Made by a program: the position numbers and the translations under genes. DNA of 64,000 bases. Origin: Rhynchonema sp. JSB1_4. Its lineage: Eukaryota; Nematoda; Chromadorea; Monhysterida; Xyalidae. Position 1 is the first letter of the stretch. The number at the start of each line of letters is the position of its first letter. Below are positions 11,709 to 36,077 of the stretch, piece after piece. The notes below the pieces were generated by a model. That model made no database searches. It saw only the letters and a program-made list of their open reading frames with translations, and had not been told where the DNA came from. Where the stretch lies: the NCBI GenBank assembly GCA_030248065.1, contig JASAMV010003281.1, forward strand, positions 40,688 to 104,687, given 5' to 3'.

Positions 11709-14700
11709 TTAGCACGCTATCCGATAATAAGAAAAATAATAGCACACGAAAGCGGTCACAATGAGGGAATGACTAGACAAATCGTAGAATCGTAAATATT
11801 TGTGGGTTTGGCCGGTTTTTGGCAGTGTCAGGGCCAGACTTTGGTGATTGCACAATCTCACTTGACTGTGAATGCCGTATGTGCTCAGGTCGACGCGTTT
11901 GATACGGGCGATCCAGCCATCTGAAACATCACCCAGCCAGGAGGATGAATACATAGCAGCCTCGAAGTATATGACTGACTTGATTTATTGACAGCAATTA
12001 GGTTTGACTTGATTCATTGACAGCAATCAGATTTGTGAGTTACTCATGTACCAGTAGTGTAACCTGCTTATCATGTCGTGACCCTCTATTGAGTGACAAC
12101 TCTATTGCGCACAAACAATTTGTCCAAGCTGCAGTTGACCTCCCACACATATATATGACGTGCTCACTTCACAATAACGAAGCCATAGTCGCATTCGAGT
12201 ACTAATTTACGCACTGCAGCACAGAGCGTAGAATCCAATCACAGCAACACATCTAACCTTGAGTGATAGTGCCATAAGTGAAGTACACTTTTTGGTGCGG
12301 TTGAAAAGCGAGATTCTTTCGCTGGAAACTACATCTGAACCGACCGTCAGTCGTATGTTTGAGTCGGGTCGGTCGTGGGGCGTTGTCGGGGTCGAGATAG
12401 ACCTGGGAGGTTGGATTTAGAATATTAATGCCACGCGCGTGTAAAGTTGAAGATCGGACCGAGAGCGAAGGTCCACCAGCCAGGACCATAGGGATCTAAA
12501 CTGCATTGGCCCCATGATTTTTTATTTCGAGAATGACATTATTGATCTCAAGTCTGGATGTCATCTGTTGTCCTCAAACAACTTTTACGCTGGTCCAAAT
12601 CAGTGTATTCAATAATTTTGGAAAATCTTCAAATCAAACATGGATCGCATACTTGACAGCCATCATGTTCGTCCCACCAAATTTGAAATCATCCCAGAAT
12701 ATCCCGCATTACCAACCTCTGAGTACGAATCCGGCAGAAAATAGTTATTGACGGTCACATAGCGCGTGCCATTCAGATGCAGTTTGTATTGACACAGCAG
12801 ACTGTTGCCATGCTGCAATTGTGATACGGGGAATTGTGAAATGAAGAATGGATAAAGAGTTTTTAAAAAAATCTGTGAGCATGACAAAAATTTGCCGATC
12901 CTGATAATCCGTTTGCTGCATCAACTTTGGTCCTGCCTCGGTCTGGCTTTTTTGTATTTAGGAAAAGGGATTCTCTGATGCCACTGATCTTGGTCACCTT
13001 AACAGTTTTTCTGTCAAAAATGTCTTGGGACAACTGTTTCGCAAGTCGAATTTGTGGTGGCACCGGAAGATCTCACTACCTTCTATGAAAAAGCCTTGCC
13101 AGACCTCCCGTTGACCGTATTTTTTAGGATACATCCGGAGCCTAATGTTCCGAAAGCATAATTTCGTGAAACATCACCAAAGTGCACGCACCCATGAAAG
13201 TCCGACGAAAGCGTCGGTCGGCGTCTCAACGTTGGCGTAGCGCGGGAAAATATGCGATTTGTGTGCGATTATGTCAAAGTACGTCTGCGCGTGCTGGCAT
13301 TTCCAGCGCAAAGTGTAATCACAGGTTCCTGCGAGATGGTTGATGCACATTTTTGTGTAGTTTTGCAAAAAAATGGCAAAAAAATTAAAGTTTCTGTTGA
13401 AACCTGTGTTGGCGCAGCCACCGTCACCGGCGTGGATGCAGCCGAAACCGAGGCCGCACACGTCTGTTGATACTGAAACATCAGCAGGTTTTGGAGAACA
13501 CGCAGGAAACAAAAACTGTTTTGTATATTCAAACCGTGAATTTTCTCAGTTGATGGGTGTAGCACCGGGGACATTATATTCGTCCAGAACACGCGTCTGC
13601 TGGCCACCACGGTCGCGCTGCAAAATTTTCACTACCGGTGTAAAAATTTTCTCTCACTTTTGAAATAATGAATAACCTACACATTTTCTCTTACGGGTGG
13701 AAAGTGTGAACAATTTACGCATTCGGTGTGAAACGCATTGACCACACAGTTTGAAGGTATGAATAATTTACACTTGTCGTGCCAAATTTACTGGCACAAA
13801 CTTTTCAACTGATAAAGACAAATGAAATATATTACGCACTCACACAAACACAATCGGTCCAACATCATGTTCAGGCGGGTACCAATTGAAGCTGGTGTGC
13901 TTTTTGTTACGCGAATCTATGTGCGTGACAGCAGTCGCCTGAAACATCAAGTAGAACTGTTGATACAATACACAGGTCGATCGTGCGTCAAAGTTTTCGT
14001 CTCATTAAATCACATACTGTAGTTACCGTAACCTGCACCACTCCAGCCACCAGCTCATGAGACGCCATCAGCTGAAACTGGCTTCGCCAGATCTAATAAT
14101 ATTTCGGTTCCAGTGTTTCGAAAACAAAAGAAAGAAAAGTGACAGTGTACATTGCATACACAATTTCTCTTTCTTTTGTTTTCGAAGCAGGTAGAACCGG
14201 AACATTATCGAATCTGGCCAAACGAGCTTCAGTTTGCTGCGTCTCATGAGCGGGTGGTTGGACCATACCTGTCTGTGATGCGCATGTTTCCGTCTCCTAT
14301 GCCATTTCTGATCACATTGCAGCAGTTTGGCACCGACGGGCAGCGGGGGCACGAAATGACCGACTCGACGTCCGGACCCGGTCAGTGTGCGTGCCTGCAG
14401 CATGAAACCGACGAAGCGCGGACCGCGGATGGTCACTGAAACATTAGAATAAAGTGCGACCACTTTGGTTCTTGTATGTAGGTACATATCTGGCCGTATC
14501 AACTTTGACGGCAAGCACCATACAACTACGGTTGTATATATGTTCGACTCGACCCCTGGTCACAATTATCATGGCTGCGTTGGACCTTGTGGTAACTTCA
14601 TCGTTTGAGGCTTGGTCTTTATGCTGACGTTCAGAGTCAGTTCTTGCCAAACCACATGTGGGTCCCTCATGCGTTCATTTTGCAGCTTTATAGACAACCA

Positions 14701-25321: not shown

Positions 25322-25835
25322 CAGGGTTGGGCAAAAAACGTTTTATTTCAAAAAATCGTTTTTTTAAAAAAACGTTTTTGTTAAAAAAACGTTTTTTTTA
25401 AAACGCCCAGATGACCAAAGTACTGTATGCCCCCAAAAAAATTGGAAAACGCTCATGTTGGGAAGAAAACGTGGTTAAATGAAGCAATTCTATGTGTTCT
25501 GAGGCAAAATAAACGGGTTTCAACCCTTTTCTAGCGAGTTGTTAAGATCCCATATCAGACCCGCATCATGGGACCAACTTTGGCCGGGGTCATCATTGAA
25601 AGTCAAACTCCGTATATCGACGTATCTCGACAAAGTAAAAATTGGTCGAAAATTTTTTTAAAAAAAATTGGGACAAAAAAATGATTTTCCTTGATGATCA
25701 GGGTACTTTCCCTGAAAAATCAGGGAAAATCAAGGAAATTCAGGATTTAAAAAAAACGAAAAACGACCCAGGCGTTTTTTTTTAAAAAACGCCTCTTTTT
25801 AAGAAAAAATGCCGTCGTTTTTTTCCCCAACCCTG
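25322..25835. mobile_element. Non-autonomous hAT-type element (MITE), 514 bp
   Basis: Terminal inverted repeats are CAGGGTTGGGCAAAAAACG and the complement of CAGGGTTGGGGAAAAAAACG. A perfect 8-bp target duplication, CGCCTGAG, lies at 25314-25321 and 25836-25843. Both features are typical of the hAT superfamily. The interior next to each end is packed with AAAAAACG/CGTTTTTT words. No transposase frame is present. Confidence 0.93.
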
Positions 25836-30781: not shown

Positions 30782-31053
30782 CAGTGGTGTAGCTTCCCAA
30801 GGCGGGGCGAGAACCTACCTATAGTACCGGCCCAGCTCGGGGGGGGGGGAACAAAATTGTTTAGGTCTGAATATTGATGAAAACCTACTCTAAAACGCTA
30901 ATTTCGCGCGTAGCGCGCGAGTTTTCGCCTATTTGGAGTAAAATATACCAATTTCATACCGTTTTGAGCCAAAAATCGCAGCCAACTGTACCAGCCGGGG
31001 GGCGGCGACCTACCTACTGTACCTGGGACCCCAACTCCCCAGCAACACCGGTG
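30782..31053. mobile_element. hAT-like element, word ACCTACTGTACC
   Basis: The end CAGTGGTGTAGCT matches the complement of the right end (AGCAACACCGGTG) at 10 of 13 positions. The 8-bp duplication CCAAAAAG is perfect (30774-30781 and 31054-31061). Inside, ACCTACC-TGTACC words recur beside both ends. A palindrome GCGCGTAGCGCGCG lies at about 30905. It has no coding capacity. Confidence 0.75.
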
Positions 31054-31061
31054 CCAAAAAG

Positions 31062-31457
31062 CACAAGCTTAGGCTTATTTTGGGGGGAGGAGGGGCCCAC
31101 GGGTACGTCTGTTCCCCCTCCATGGTACGCCTGCCGCCCCTGTTCCCCTCCGGGGACGTCTTCTCCCCCAATTTTTGTCTAAAATAGGCAAATTTAGGCC
31201 TAAAATAGGGAATTTTAAGCATAAAAATAGGCATTTTTAAGCATAAAATGAGTGATTTTCAGGTCAATGTTGTTAAAAATTGCCAAAATACCCTTTTTAT
31301 TGAGATTTTTTTCAAAAATGGGCAAAAAGGAGTCACATTTTCGACCTCAAAAATGACTTTTCTCCAAATTTGGGTCCTCCCCCCAGGTGGTACGTCTGTT
31401 CCACCTCCGAAAAAAGGGGGTTCCGCCTGTTCCCCCTCCGGACCAGGAACTACACTG
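31062..31457. mobile_element. hAT-like element, word GGTACGTCTGTTCCCCCTCC, left end unresolved
   Basis: The right end is CCAGGAACTACACTG (31443-31457), the same terminal sequence as the element at 32033-32410. The backbone between 31157 and 31380 aligns with that element base for base with few changes (aggcctaaaatag, gtgattttcaggtc, tttattgaga, cacctcaaaaa). Where the other copy has GGTACACTAACCGCC, this one has GGTACGTCTGTTCCCCCTCC (31102, 31389) and truncated forms. The start coordinate is approximate; no left terminal repeat was found. Confidence 0.6.
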
Positions 31458-32032
31458 GCTACACTCCAATAACGAATAACGCCCCCGCCCCAAATCTCTG
31501 GCTCGGCCCGGCCCGGTCGACGAACGACGAAGTCAAAATCCCAGCCCAGCATAGTAGTGGCAGGGGGGTTGGGGGATTACCCCCTCTCAGGACTTACTTA
31601 CCACAAAACCCCAAGGGGGTTGTGGGGGTTCACAACTCCAAATCATACCTCTCACAAGCAACTTTATACATTTTAAGGCAAAAATCGGTGTTTTTCGACC
31701 CTATTTTCTCAAAAATCGCAGGCCCACCCATAATACCTTGTAAAAACCTAAATGGAAGGGGGCTCTATTAATTCACTGATTCCATTTTGGGGGAGGCTCT
31801 ATTCCGGGGGCCTCTATTAATTCACTGACCCGAACCTGAAAAAATTGTTCCCAGAAATACCCCAAAAACCCATAAAAAGGGGTTTGAAAGGATGTTTTTT
31901 CGCTTGTGATCGCATTTATTCGTGTCCATTCGTCAATAAGAGGCGTATTATGTGCTCTGAACGAACAACAAACGTGTATAAATGTTCCTGTGCACCACTA
32001 TCAAGCCTTAATACACTACTGTTACTGTATAG

Positions 32033-32410
32033 CAGTGTAGTTCCTGGGGGGAGGGGTCTAAGGTACACTAACCGCCGCGACCAAGGTACACTAGTACACT
32101 AACCGCCGCGCCAGGTACACTAACCGCCTCAATTTTTGCCCAAAATAGGCATTTTTAGGCCTAAAATGGGCATTTTTAGGCCCAAAATGGGTGATTTTTA
32201 GGTCGACGTTGTCAAAAGTCGCCAAAATACAAGTTTTATTGAGAACTTTTTCCAAAAAGGGGCAAAAATCGGTCAAATTTTTCACCTCAAAAAGTGACTT
32301 TTTCCTGGATTTGGGTCTTCCCCCCTTCCCCCCCAGGGAGGTACACTAACCGCCACACGGAAAAAAGGGGTAGGTACACTAACCGCCGCGCCGGACCAGG
32401 AACTACACTG
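32033..32410. mobile_element. hAT-like element, word GGTACACTAACCGCC
   Basis: The terminal repeats CAGTGTAGTTCCTGG and CCAGGAACTACACTG are perfect complements. The 8-bp duplication CTGTATAG is perfect (32025-32032 and 32411-32418). The word GGTACACTAACCGCC or a close form occurs at 32062, about 32094, 32114, 32340 and 32373, always close to the ends. Non-coding. Confidence 0.92.
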
Positions 32411-32756
32411 CTGTATAGGGGATGTTACTTAGGGGGGCTGTATTCCGGGGGGGGGGGCTCGATTAATTCACATTCACTGACCCCGTTTTGGGGGGCTGTA
32501 TTACTACGGGGGGCTGCATTTAGGTTTTTACGGTATTCAAGGGGATTTTCGGCGAAAATTTGCAAAAAGTACTCATTTTACCTCACTTTTTGGCCAAAAT
32601 TGTATCACAATCACAAAAACGGTGTTCTTTTGGCCTTTTTGGGTGATTTGGGGGCTCGGACCGGGCCGGGCCGGCCAAACCCGGCCCGTTTGCGTTGCGA
32701 CCTCTGATTATGGGTGGGCACAATACCCAATACCCAATACCAATACCACCCAATAC

Positions 32757-33225
32757 CAGTGTTGGAGGTACTCTGGAGAGGGGGGATACCTTACCTACTG
32801 TACCATACCGCGCTCGGAGAGGGGGGAAACCTACTGTACCAAAGCCGATGGCCTGGGGGGTTATGTACCTAGGGGGGGTTGGGTTAGGTTTTGGGGTGAA
32901 AATTTTTAATGCTTTTATTATGTGTGGAATCGTGTGAAAACGTAGTATTTACGCGCGTAGCGCGCGAATTTTGGGTAATTTGAGGCAAAAACCACTGATT
33001 TTACACTAACTTTGGCCATTTGGTCAAAAATTGGCACTTTTGGGGCAAAATCGGGGGGGGGGGGAATACCTACTGTACCGGGGTGAAAATAGGGGGGATA
33101 CCTATACCTACTCTACTGTACCATGCCAGACATCGGGGGAATACCTACTGTACCAGGCGAGGGGGGATACCTACTGTACTGGGGGGGCGCTACCCCCCCC
33201 CCCAAACCCCCCACCTCCAACACTG
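32757..33225. mobile_element. hAT-like element nested in the CCAATACC element, word ACCTACTGTACC
   Basis: The terminal repeats CAGTGTTGGAGG and CCTCCAACACTG are perfect complements. The 8-bp duplication CCCAATAC (32749-32756 and 33226-33233) comes from the host array. The word ATACCTACTGTACC occurs at least five times. A palindrome CGCGCGTAGCGCGCG lies at about 32951. Confidence 0.92.
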
Positions 33226-33546
33226 CCCAATACCAATACCAATACCAGTGCTTGGTATTGGTATTGGGTCTAATTCTGGTATTGGGTATTGGGTATGTAT
33301 TGGTATTGAAGCTGGCCTGGTATTGGTATTGGGTATTGGTATTGGGTTTGCCCAGGTATTGGGTCAAAACCAATACCCAATACTAATCCAGGAAAACCCA
33401 ATACCAAACCAATACCAAACCCAATACCTGACTCAAAACCCAATACCAAACCAATACCAAACCCAAACCCAATACCAACCCAATACCAGACCAAAAACCC
33501 AATACCAAACCAATACTAAGACCAATACCCAATACCCAATACCAAT

Positions 33547-33843
33547 AAAGGCAGTCTACGGGAGGTTGTCACTCAGCCCCCGAATACCGTAACCCACCGA
33601 AAGCGAGATCGTTGCGAGACCCATGCTGATCGCTGCTTATCGACACGTGTATTAGCGGCAGCAAGCTGGGAATTGTCATCATGCGCGTCAATCACCAAAA
33701 CTTGGAAATGTTGGTTGGTGTTGGCGCTAACACGCGAAACATAGATAAAAACCAAAATGGTCTCGACACGATCCTTGCAGATCAAAATTACGGTGGGTGA
33801 CGGTATTCGGGGGCTGAGTGACAACCTCCCGTAGACTGCCTTT
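33547..33843. repeat. Inverted-repeat element of about 300 bp inside the CCAATACC array
   Basis: The left arm (AAAGGCAGTCTACGGGAGG, then TTGTCACTCAGCCCCCGAAT) is mirrored almost perfectly over about 50 bases at 33791-33843. The roughly 190-base centre is unrelated. It is probably a DNA-transposon derivative; no target duplication was recognised. Confidence 0.85.
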
Positions 33844-33929
33844 ACCAACCCAATACCCAATAGTCAATACCAATACCAACCCAATACCAAACCCAATACC
33901 AGGCACTTCAGTAGTATTGATCTGGTACA

Positions 33930-34733
33930 GGCAATCTAGCCGCTGATGTCACCGCCGCGAAATCTACAGTATATTGGTCGCACAATGACTTTATAAGAAT
34001 TAATCAAATTTTTTTCCTGAATCGTAAAGAGGGCAAGTGACGGGGCAATGACGTTGCTTTGCGTGATCACACACAAAACACGTAGTAAAGAGAATGTTTC
34101 AGACCTGCGGCAGCGTGGTTGATCTGGTAGATTATTTTCAGCTGAAAATGTTTTGTGAGAATCACTAATAGCACAGTGGTTAAGAGTGACTGAACGTGAA
34201 AATCAGGATTGATTTGATGAATTCTTATATAGTCATTGTGCGACCAATACCAGAGGCTGAGCCATTACACCGTTTTTCGACTTATACATGAAGCGATTTT
34301 TATTTAGTTCAATGTTTCATGCTGTTTCATGCCACGCAGCTGAGTACTGTGTAAGCCGAATGGCTCTAAAGAGGTACAATTTTATAACACAGGGAATTTT
34401 TCTTCGGGCCACAGTTTGAAATAGAGTTGCTCCACTAATTTTGACCAGCGTAAAAATTATTCCTCTACAGCTAATGAACATCTTTTACGCTGGTCGAAAT
34501 TAGTGGAGCAACTCCATCTCAAACTGTGGCCCAAAGAAAAATTCCCTGTGTTGTAAAATTGTACCTCTTTGGAGCTGAGTATAGAGCACTCAGCTCAGCC
34601 GCGTGGCTGAAAAGCAGCCTGAAACATTGAACTACGTAAATATCGCTTCATGTCTAAGTCGAGAAGCGGTGGAACATCTCAGCCTCTGGTATACTGTAGA
34701 TTTCGCGGCGGTGACATCAGCGGCTGGATTGCC
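33930..34733. repeat. 800-bp fold-back element
   Basis: The arms (GGCAATCTAGCCGCTGATGT, CACCGCCGCGAAATCTACAG at the left; complements at 34685-34733) continue inwards through GAGGTACAATTTTA and GGGAATTTTTCTT to a centre near 34460. TTTTGACCAGCGTAAAA and TTTTACGCTGGTC face each other there. The left arm is interrupted by the MITE at 33974-34247; the right arm is uninterrupted. Confidence 0.88.
33974..34247. mobile_element. TA-target MITE, copy 1
   Basis: Terminal repeats are TTGGTCGCACAATGACT and AGTCATTGTGCGACCAA, flanked by TA on both sides. The uninterrupted right arm of the host fold-back reads ACAGTATACCAGAGG in complement, which is the empty site and confirms a TA duplication as in Tc1/mariner-type elements. 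A second copy is at 56589-56860. Confidence 0.93.
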
Positions 34734-34787
34734 TATATTCGGTATTGGTATTGGGTCTCACCCGGTATTGGTATTGGGTATCAGAGG

Positions 34788-35230
34788 CAGTGCTGTGGCT
34801 TGGGGGGGGGGGGTGGGGGGGGGTCCCCCCAATGGTACCCTACCCGCCCCCGGCCTGGTACGCTACCCCCCTACCCGCCCCGCTCTGGTACCCTACCCCC
34901 CTACCCGTCCCGCCCTGGTACCCTACCCGCCCCGATTTTTACCCCCAAAATGCCCATTTTTCGGTCAAAAATGCCCAAATTTCGACCGAAAACCCTAAAA
35001 AGTGCAAAAAATCTCGCGCTGCGCGCGATATATGCACTTTTTAGCACATAAAAACAGGCACCCGAAAAAACTTGTGTTGTACCCTACCCGCCCCGAAAAA
35101 TCTTCCCCCCCCTCCCCCCCAAACCGGATTTCCCCCCCCCCCAAAATCCCAGGTACACTACCCCCCTACCCGCCCCGATTTTTTCCACCTATGTACCCTA
35201 CCCCGCCCCGCAAAAGTAGCCACAGCACTG
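34788..35230. mobile_element. hAT-like element, word GGTACCCTACCCGCCCCG
   Basis: The terminal repeats CAGTGCTGTGGCT and AGCCACAGCACTG are complements. The 8-bp duplication ATCAGAGG is perfect (34780-34787 and 35231-35238). The word GGTACCCTACCCGCCCCG and variants occur near both ends. A palindrome-like TCGCGCTGCGCGCGA lies near 35016. It is inserted into the left tip of the CGGGCC element next to it. Confidence 0.92.
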
Positions 35231-35232
35231 AT

Positions 35233-35622
35233 CAGAGGTGGGAACCGGGCCGGGCCGATGTTTCCGGCCCGAACGCTCGGGCCGGGCCGGGCCTTCGGAA
35301 CGTCGGGCCGTGCCGGGCCGGGGTGGCCGGCCCGAAAAGGCATGAGACATCATCGAATTTAAATAAAAAATCGTGATTTTTTAGACTGAATTTGCCAAAA
35401 TTTCTCGCGATTCTGCAAATTAGTACCGACTTCCTTGATTATCAGGTATTTCTAAAAACCAAAAAAACAGTAATTTTGCACCAAAAATTGCTTCAAAATA
35501 TCATCAGAAAAAGTCGGGCCGGGCCGGGCCAGGCCGACTTTTTTCCAAGTCGGGCCGGGCCGACCTCCGGACCTCGTCGGGCCGGGTCGGGCTGAGGTAA
35601 CCCGGCCCGATTCCCACCTCTG
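35233..35622. mobile_element. hAT-like element, word CGGGCC
   Basis: Ends are CAGAGGTGGGAACCGGGCC and CGGCCCGATTCCCACCTCTG. Flanks are TTGGGTAT at the left (before the nested insertion) and TTGGGTTT at the right, an 8-bp duplication with one mismatch, from the GGTATTGG array. CGGGCC arrays line both ends; the middle is AT-rich. Confidence 0.85.
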
Positions 35623-36077
35623 TTGGGTTTGGGTATTGGTATTGGGTCACCAATTTGGTATTGGTATTGGGTATTGGGTATTGGTACACGGCCGGTATTG
35701 GTATTGGGTATTGGGTGTCAAAAGTGGTATTGTGCCCAGGCCTACCTCTGATGGAGATGGAACAAAATTCTCAAAAAAAGGAAAAGAAAAACTTTTTAGC
35801 TCCTGGTCGGAAACTGAAATTTCTTTCTCTTCATTGAATCCTGACTCTTGAAGAGAACTGGTACCACGATGCGTCTTGGTTGGTTTATTGCTCTCAGTGA
35901 CGCATAAACCATGCACGTAAATTAATGATAGAAGCACAGTTACAAGACCGGGTGGACAATTACGGAAATGAAAATAGTTACAACACTGGTTATAACAAAA
36001 CCACTGCAAATAAAAGCTACAAAAAGCGCCACGATGCGTCTTCATGCCATCTGATGTTTCACGACTGTTCAAAAACC

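Follow-up and report, generated by a model that had tools for sequence, protein, structure and literature searches.

Concerted replacement of subterminal words on a kept backbone and terminus in hAT-type miniature elements of the nematode Rhynchonema sp. JSB1_4

A 64,000-nucleotide stretch of the genome of the nematode Rhynchonema sp. JSB1_4 (GenBank assembly GCA_030248065.1, contig JASAMV010003281.1, positions 40,688 to 104,687, forward strand; hereafter the window) contains, at positions 30782-35744, a nest of hAT-type elements that includes two related copies lined near their ends with different short repeated words. Copies of this family collected from the whole genome, here treated as miniature inverted-repeat transposable elements (MITEs) with the 15-bp terminal inverted repeat (TIR) CAGTGTAGTTCCTGG, each carry one uniform word, and between classes of copies the word is replaced at all of its places in concert while the backbone and TIR are kept. 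The words are constrained within a class, and a second family shows a like replacement. With moderate confidence, we favor a reading in which the words are putative transposase-binding sites that record successive changes of transposase specificity.

The first-pass annotation of the window had pointed to the copies ending at 31457 and 32410, which share a right TIR and an alignable backbone and carry a different word at matching places, and our analysis of the window confirms this relationship (Table 1). To place this pair in a genome-wide context, we queried the 203.9-Mb assembly (5,747 contigs) with the full-length element 32033-32410 and with the backbone 31165-31390, scoring the best 40 of 3,454 and the best 40 of 3,513 first-look candidates, respectively. 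An exact terminal pattern for either element end occurs 3,768 times genome-wide, and its reversed control does not occur. In the 90 fetched loci and the window, the backbone occurs at 165 places, and 84 distinct elements are complete, with CAGTGTAGTTCCTGG at both ends and three or fewer substitutions in each; the presence of the TIR thus reflects how the copies were chosen. One of these elements comes from the window, 34 from the full-length query, 29 from the backbone query and 20 from the terminal pattern, and their lengths range from 279 to 418 bp. At the remaining backbone places, one or both TIRs are absent in the expected range, and at 27 of these places no class is represented by two or more words.

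Elements of the hAT superfamily duplicate 8 bp of target with an nTnnnnAn tendency and have short TIRs of the CA(G)...(C)TG type. In the 84 complete copies, the 8-bp target-site duplication (TSD) is perfect in 64 and has two or fewer mismatches in 72; among the perfect ones, position 2 is most often T and position 7 most often A (27/64 in each case). The family thus combines an 8-bp TSD of nTnnnnAn tendency with a CAGTGTAGTTCCTGG TIR that is identical in every class consensus, as hAT elements do, and is short, TIR-bounded and of high copy number, as MITEs are (coding capacity being judged by length alone). As in other elements with subterminal repeats, a short motif recurs near both ends.

The 84 copies form four word classes on one backbone with one TIR: A (31 copies; A1, 27 and A2, 4), B (40), C (6) and D (7). 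Every class word starts with the constant GGTAC, to which class A adds GTCTGTTCC, class B ACTAACCGCC, class C ACTATCTCCC and class D ACTAATTTCC; the short form of the variable part reads GTCTGTT, ACTAACCG, ACTATCT and ACTAATTT in the four classes. Three slots on the left and two on the right hold the words in one orientation, and slot 2 has a split word in all four classes. With independent assignment of the slots (one mismatch or fewer, a margin of two, slots failing the threshold uncounted), all 342 assigned slots match the word of the element in which they lie, at 2 to 5 slots per copy and in 84/84 copies. A word uniform within a copy and different between copies, as predicted in the first-pass annotation for a genome-wide collection, is therefore what the four classes display, and words varying independently within single copies were not encountered in the CAGTGTAGTTCCTGG family.

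The agreement of left with right words is that of the 84 copies; adjacent words were also surveyed genome-wide. An exact B word adjoining a D word was returned by neither of two genome-wide pattern searches (0 and 0). With intermediates allowed, 1,319 pairs of adjacent B- or D-type slots are found, mostly at right ends and some at left ends, and the 100 listed of these comprise 77 B-B pairs (two with one changed base) and 23 D-D pairs. An ACCT intermediate is present in none of the right-end pairs genome-wide, within a spacing limit by which the pattern would miss L059, a diverged D copy with one unassigned slot that reads ACTAACCT, a non-class word. Adjacent right-end pairs of A, C or hybrid type number 1,358, counted together with the types unsorted. 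A right-end pattern with exact TIR context and a free word, blind to class C, matches 2,672 times, a lower bound on the right ends of the family in the genome; 100 listed matches, sorted by eye with point and small-indel variants included, give 47 B, 26 A1, 17 A2 and 10 D right ends. Finally, the 286 slots starting with GTACACTA in the fetched loci and the window continue as ACCGCCG (124), ATTTCCC (40), ACCGCCT (25) or TCTCCCC (21), the remainder comprising forms of the split slot, words that belong to other families, and strings seen rarely.

Backbones of the CAGTGTAGTTCCTGG family align when the words are left out, a property on which the first-pass annotation had staked its claim. Over 188 columns, classes with different words have consensus backbone identities of 96.3% (C-D), 95.7% (B-C), 95.2% (B-D) and 88.8% (A1-B), and A1 and A2 have the same word, yet their backbones are 80.9% identical; word identity does not track backbone divergence. 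We compared words and backbone in McDonald-Kreitman (MK)-like tables, in which a difference is fixed when the consensus differs and each state is held at 80% or more. For C-D, 17 word columns are fixed and 6 segregate, compared with 3 fixed and 59 segregating backbone columns (Fisher p 2.8e-10), that is, fixed differences at 17/50 word columns, 3/188 backbone columns and 0/30 TIR columns. The counts are 15/10 versus 5/95 for B-D (p 3.6e-9) and 38/29 versus 15/110 for A1-B (p 1.3e-10), and 1/24 versus 16/73 for A1-A2 with its common word (p 0.11). Single-slot tests in the four different-word pairs (B-D, C-D, B-C and A1-B) give p values of 1.1e-5 to 0.0085. Among these copies, which were chosen by their TIR, none of the 30 TIR columns is fixed in any of the ten class pairs. 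The change from B to D is CCG to TTT at all five slots, and the short, unequal spacers between words and the split slot 2 persist through the swap.

Within classes, the 49 copies from the backbone query and the terminal pattern deviate from their consensus at 38 of 2,400 word-core positions (1.6%) versus 288 of 9,157 backbone positions (3.1%; Fisher p 1.6e-5, which is indicative because the copies are related). Words are thus more conserved than the backbone, as expected of cis-acting sites needed for movement. A tree of the 188 backbone columns sets A2 apart (support 0.999) and joins B, C and D. The words themselves have parts in common, ACTA after GGTAC in C, D and B, and a C-rich tail in A and C; these similarities suggest stepwise change of word parts, and we infer A, C, D, B as the order of the words in time.

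A finder for 8-bp duplications with 14-bp TIRs, run on the fetched loci and the window, returned 90 elements with 24 different 11-base TIR starts, several of which are variants of one family, and every TIR group came with a recurrent subterminal 8-mer. One such family, with TIR CAGTGTAGTGGC, shows a similar word swap, less cleanly than the CAGTGTAGTTCCTGG family. At the places of GGTACCTTGCAACC in its class 2a, class 2b carries GGTATCTATCTCGAG or GGTATCTTGGGT, at a mean backbone identity of 86%, and class 2c has the words ACTTACCT/ATACCTCTCAC on a backbone that is ~70-74% identical. Of 15 pairings found, 11 were aligned (2a, 2; 2b, 2; 2c, 7), 10 of them with perfect duplications; the four dropped were two duplicates in reverse orientation and two pairings that lacked a duplication, of which one was also too long.

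What might read such words? Ac is counted among the elements with subterminal transposase-binding repeats, and Herves and Hermes, like the present family, have 8-bp TSDs. According to excerpts of the respective reports, the Herves transposase binds an 8-bp subterminal motif, four direct repeats of which are enough for binding (PMC3143072), and the BED fingers of Hermes bind subterminal repeats (PMC10368747). Because of these precedents, as far as the excerpts go, we read the words as putative transposase-binding sites: here too a short motif (8 bp in Herves) is repeated near both ends. The difference is that the excerpts give each element one motif with close variants, whereas the present family has four words on one backbone and TIR, each uniform within a copy.

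We infer that the words bind the transposase, that the specificity of the latter changed and that the slots then changed one by one under selection. Each MITE bears five or six copies of GGTAC plus ~8 variable bases, which would serve as binding sites of its transposase. While one transposase operates, selection would hold the words, since copies with damaged words would not be moved. The transposase would then change specificity, probably via its N-terminal zinc finger, and elements with the new word at their slots would amplify, each burst leaving a class with one uniform word on a near-unchanged backbone and TIR. The four classes would be snapshots of successive recognition codes. A putative joint change of specificity and words, one of two explanations offered in the first-pass annotation, fits best with the 342/342 uniform slots, the word constraint within classes and the excess word divergence between them.

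On the transposase side, a profile search of the genome with the hAT dimer domain (PF05699) gave 330 candidates, the best 150 of which were scored. We read 22 hand-picked 3' ends beside this domain, each of which has a one-word array (ATCCCG in 19 and CCGACA in 3). The 19 belong to a hAT family with TIR CAGTGTTCGAACGG (L091, L094-L100 and L102-L112). A zf-BED profile has 32 matches, 23 at one identical score, which may reflect a recent burst of the CCGACA hAT; the one locus read belongs to that family. Its 5' end consists of TIR TAGGGATCGGCGTCGG, a CCGACA array, ~100 AT-rich bases and an ATG-started BED finger (Pfam 1.3e-7). Reverse-complemented, TAGGGATCGGCGTCGG gives the 3' tip of the CCGACA family, and the two ends therefore probably belong to one element. 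This layout suggests a plan for full-length hATs of this genome in which the transposase lies between two word arrays, each bounded on its outer side by a TIR. The DUF4371 profile (PF14291) matched neither the genome nor its own controls.

Several observations weigh against the favored reading. None of the 22 3' ends read beside the dimer domain has a GGTAC-word array of its own, and neither they nor the one BED 5' end, all of which belong to the ATCCCG or CCGACA families, led to a transposase with the CAGTGTAGTTCC TIR; the protein of that family could be missing from the genome, split by introns or beyond the matches that were scored. Slot-by-slot change might be expected to leave more relic intermediates, which are nearly absent (ACCT in one slot of L059 and a similar slot in the partial copy L065). 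The backbone tree groups the six C copies with six of seven D copies (support 0.971) and places one D among B; C and D interleave, and B, C and D are not cleanly separated and need not each have a single clean origin. Four pairs among the 84 copies have the same class and flanks, which leaves 80 distinct flank pairs and hence 80 independent insertions. The pooled MK-like p values are too strong, because word columns change together and are not independent, and 30 of the 40 class B copies come from the full-length query, which may bias their word conservation upward. Lastly, copies of class 2b mix two related words, which weakens a claim of strict uniformity.

The near absence of intermediates would be in line with active copying, in which template switching between word repeats during post-excision gap repair spreads one new word to all slots; the difference between B and D, in which five slots take the same multi-base replacement and the backbone changes little, would follow as well. 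More broadly, some process of this kind, template switching or another writer, might rewrite all words at once, giving a one-step jump of code and an escape from parasites and silencers. We regard this broader proposal as unlikely and accord copying itself a similarly small chance. Long conversion tracts would tend to erase the short, unequal spacers and the split slot 2, both of which survive the swap. Nor did the homogenizing process suggested in the first-pass annotation receive positive evidence: no private word change is common to two slots of one element, against 0.275 expected by shuffling. It is because this test had little power that copying is retained as a candidate. Nothing need be rewritten if recombination or gap repair gave the interior of one family the ends of another, leaving backbone and ends with different histories. 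Judged by eye, the spacers of C resemble those of A and the spacers of D those of B, a pairing at odds with the C-D group of the backbone tree, and coral MITE families (CMITEs), as an excerpt of the report describes them (PMC2872659), have a common conserved interior, more conserved than TIRs that differ. These families are piggyBac-related, however, and the present one keeps both TIR and interior while its words change: no TIR column of 30 is fixed in any class pair, in copies chosen by TIR. For B and D, terminal block exchange is rejected: spacers, backbone and TIR are common to both, and what sets them apart is mainly one short word change repeated in each slot; as a general account, such modular exchange seems to us rather improbable.

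In an arms race with the host, a silencer such as a small RNA or a zinc-finger repressor would be directed at the words, and elements that escaped it by carrying a new word at every slot would prevail. This would yield the same punctuated pattern and within-class constraint. Silencing alone leaves the sharing of a word across slots unexplained unless a protein also reads it, and we hold this account to be quite improbable. Ordinary drift or an alignment artefact deserves next to no credence: single-slot p values of 0.00001-0.0085 in four pairs, 80 distinct flank pairs and the absence of exact B/D mixtures led us to reject drift and chance.

Concerted replacement of this kind was not noticed in the literature on hAT elements, MITEs and subterminal repeats, as judged mainly from titles and the openings of abstracts. 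Mycobacteriophage stoperators and plasmid iterons reportedly also present many copies of one protein-binding word per replicon, with matched change in the protein; they are an analogy only, being bacterial regulatory or replication systems in which the protein is known, whereas here it is missing. The word replacement bears on an old question, namely how a multi-site DNA address and its reader protein change together when each change alone does harm. On the favored reading, several such changes are preserved in numerous frozen copies of an element that otherwise stays constant, with a like case in the second family, so the order, step size and protein changes could be worked out. Word replacement could explain how hAT elements shed nonautonomous parasites, and the word classes are a natural set for reading BED-finger specificity once the transposases are known.

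Some fetched copies are rearranged. Two (L077 and L078) are chimeric, with a class B right end that runs into other sequence and is partly inverted; five (L038, L053, L012, L040 and L023) are broken by other repeats, with the junction at TA within or beside a word, and look as if GGTAC words were targets of the inserted repeats.

Returning to the window, the first-pass annotation had credited six short elements in the nest, and one at 25322, with 8-bp duplications. Perfect TSDs flank five of these (25322-25835, 30782-31053, 32033-32410, 32757-33225 and 34788-35230), the CGGGCC-word element has 7 of 8 positions and the duplication of the CCAATACC element was read by eye. The description fails for the copy ending at 31457, in which a terminus check in the window recognized neither left TIR nor TSD, and the CCAATACC element is not short, reaching ~3 kb because other elements are nested inside it. 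The TIRs of 30782-31053 match poorly (6/16 positions differ).

Table 1. Elements and their parts in the window (coordinates in window positions).
Feature	Coordinates	Strand	Description
Class B element	32033..32410	+	TIR CAGTGTAGTTCCTGG; four exact GGTACACTAACCGCC words and one split word; AT-rich backbone; perfect TSD CTGTATAG
Class B left words	32062..32128	+	Slots at 32062, 32085 (split word GGTACACTAGTACACTAACCGCC) and 32114
Class B right words	32340..32387	+	At 32340 and 32373; same orientation as left words
Class B backbone	32130..32325	+	Homologous to 31165-31390
Class A copy	31102..31457	+	Words GGTACGTCTGTTCC at 31102 and 31389; split word at 31124; right TIR as in class B
Class A backbone	31165..31390	+	Used as genome query
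hAT-type MITE	30782..31053	+	Left TIR CAGTGGTGTAGC; right TIR diverged; ACCTACTGTACC-type words; perfect TSD CCAAAAAG
hAT-type MITE	32757..33225	+	TIR CAGTGTTGGAGGT; ACCTACTGTACC words; perfect TSD CCCAATAC; inside the CCAATACC element
CCAATACC/GGTATTGG element with nested insertions	32709..35744	+	TSD CCTCTGAT; ends read by eye
hAT-type MITE	34788..35230	+	TIR CAGTGCTGTGGCT; words TACCCGCCCC / GGTACCCTACCCGCCCC; perfect TSD ATCAGAGG
CGGGCC-word element	35233..35622	+	TIR CAGAGGTGGGAA; duplication 7/8 after discounting the later nested insertion 34788-35230
AAAAAACG-word element	25322..25835	+	TIR CAGGGTTGGG; perfect TSD CGCCTGAG
Second-family copy, left part	31550..31760	+	End CATAGTAGTGGC; class 2c words; right boundary approximate, by eye

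Two inverted-repeat elements with ends unlike hAT (33546-33844 and 33926-34737) are also nested in the CCAATACC element, with arms of 57 nt and 48 nt, respectively, each 96% complementary. A domain scan of seven open reading frames of the window left six without a match and gave a weak Reeler-domain match for one on the minus strand (14068-14559; E 8.9e-5), a domain that would suit an animal genome. Finally, four loci (L030 2948-3359, L029 2438-2830, L009 2450-2884 and L090 244-715) hold unlike MITE families that have a mid-backbone palindrome in common, for example GCGCGCGTAGCGCGCG or GCGCGCGGAGCGCGCG.

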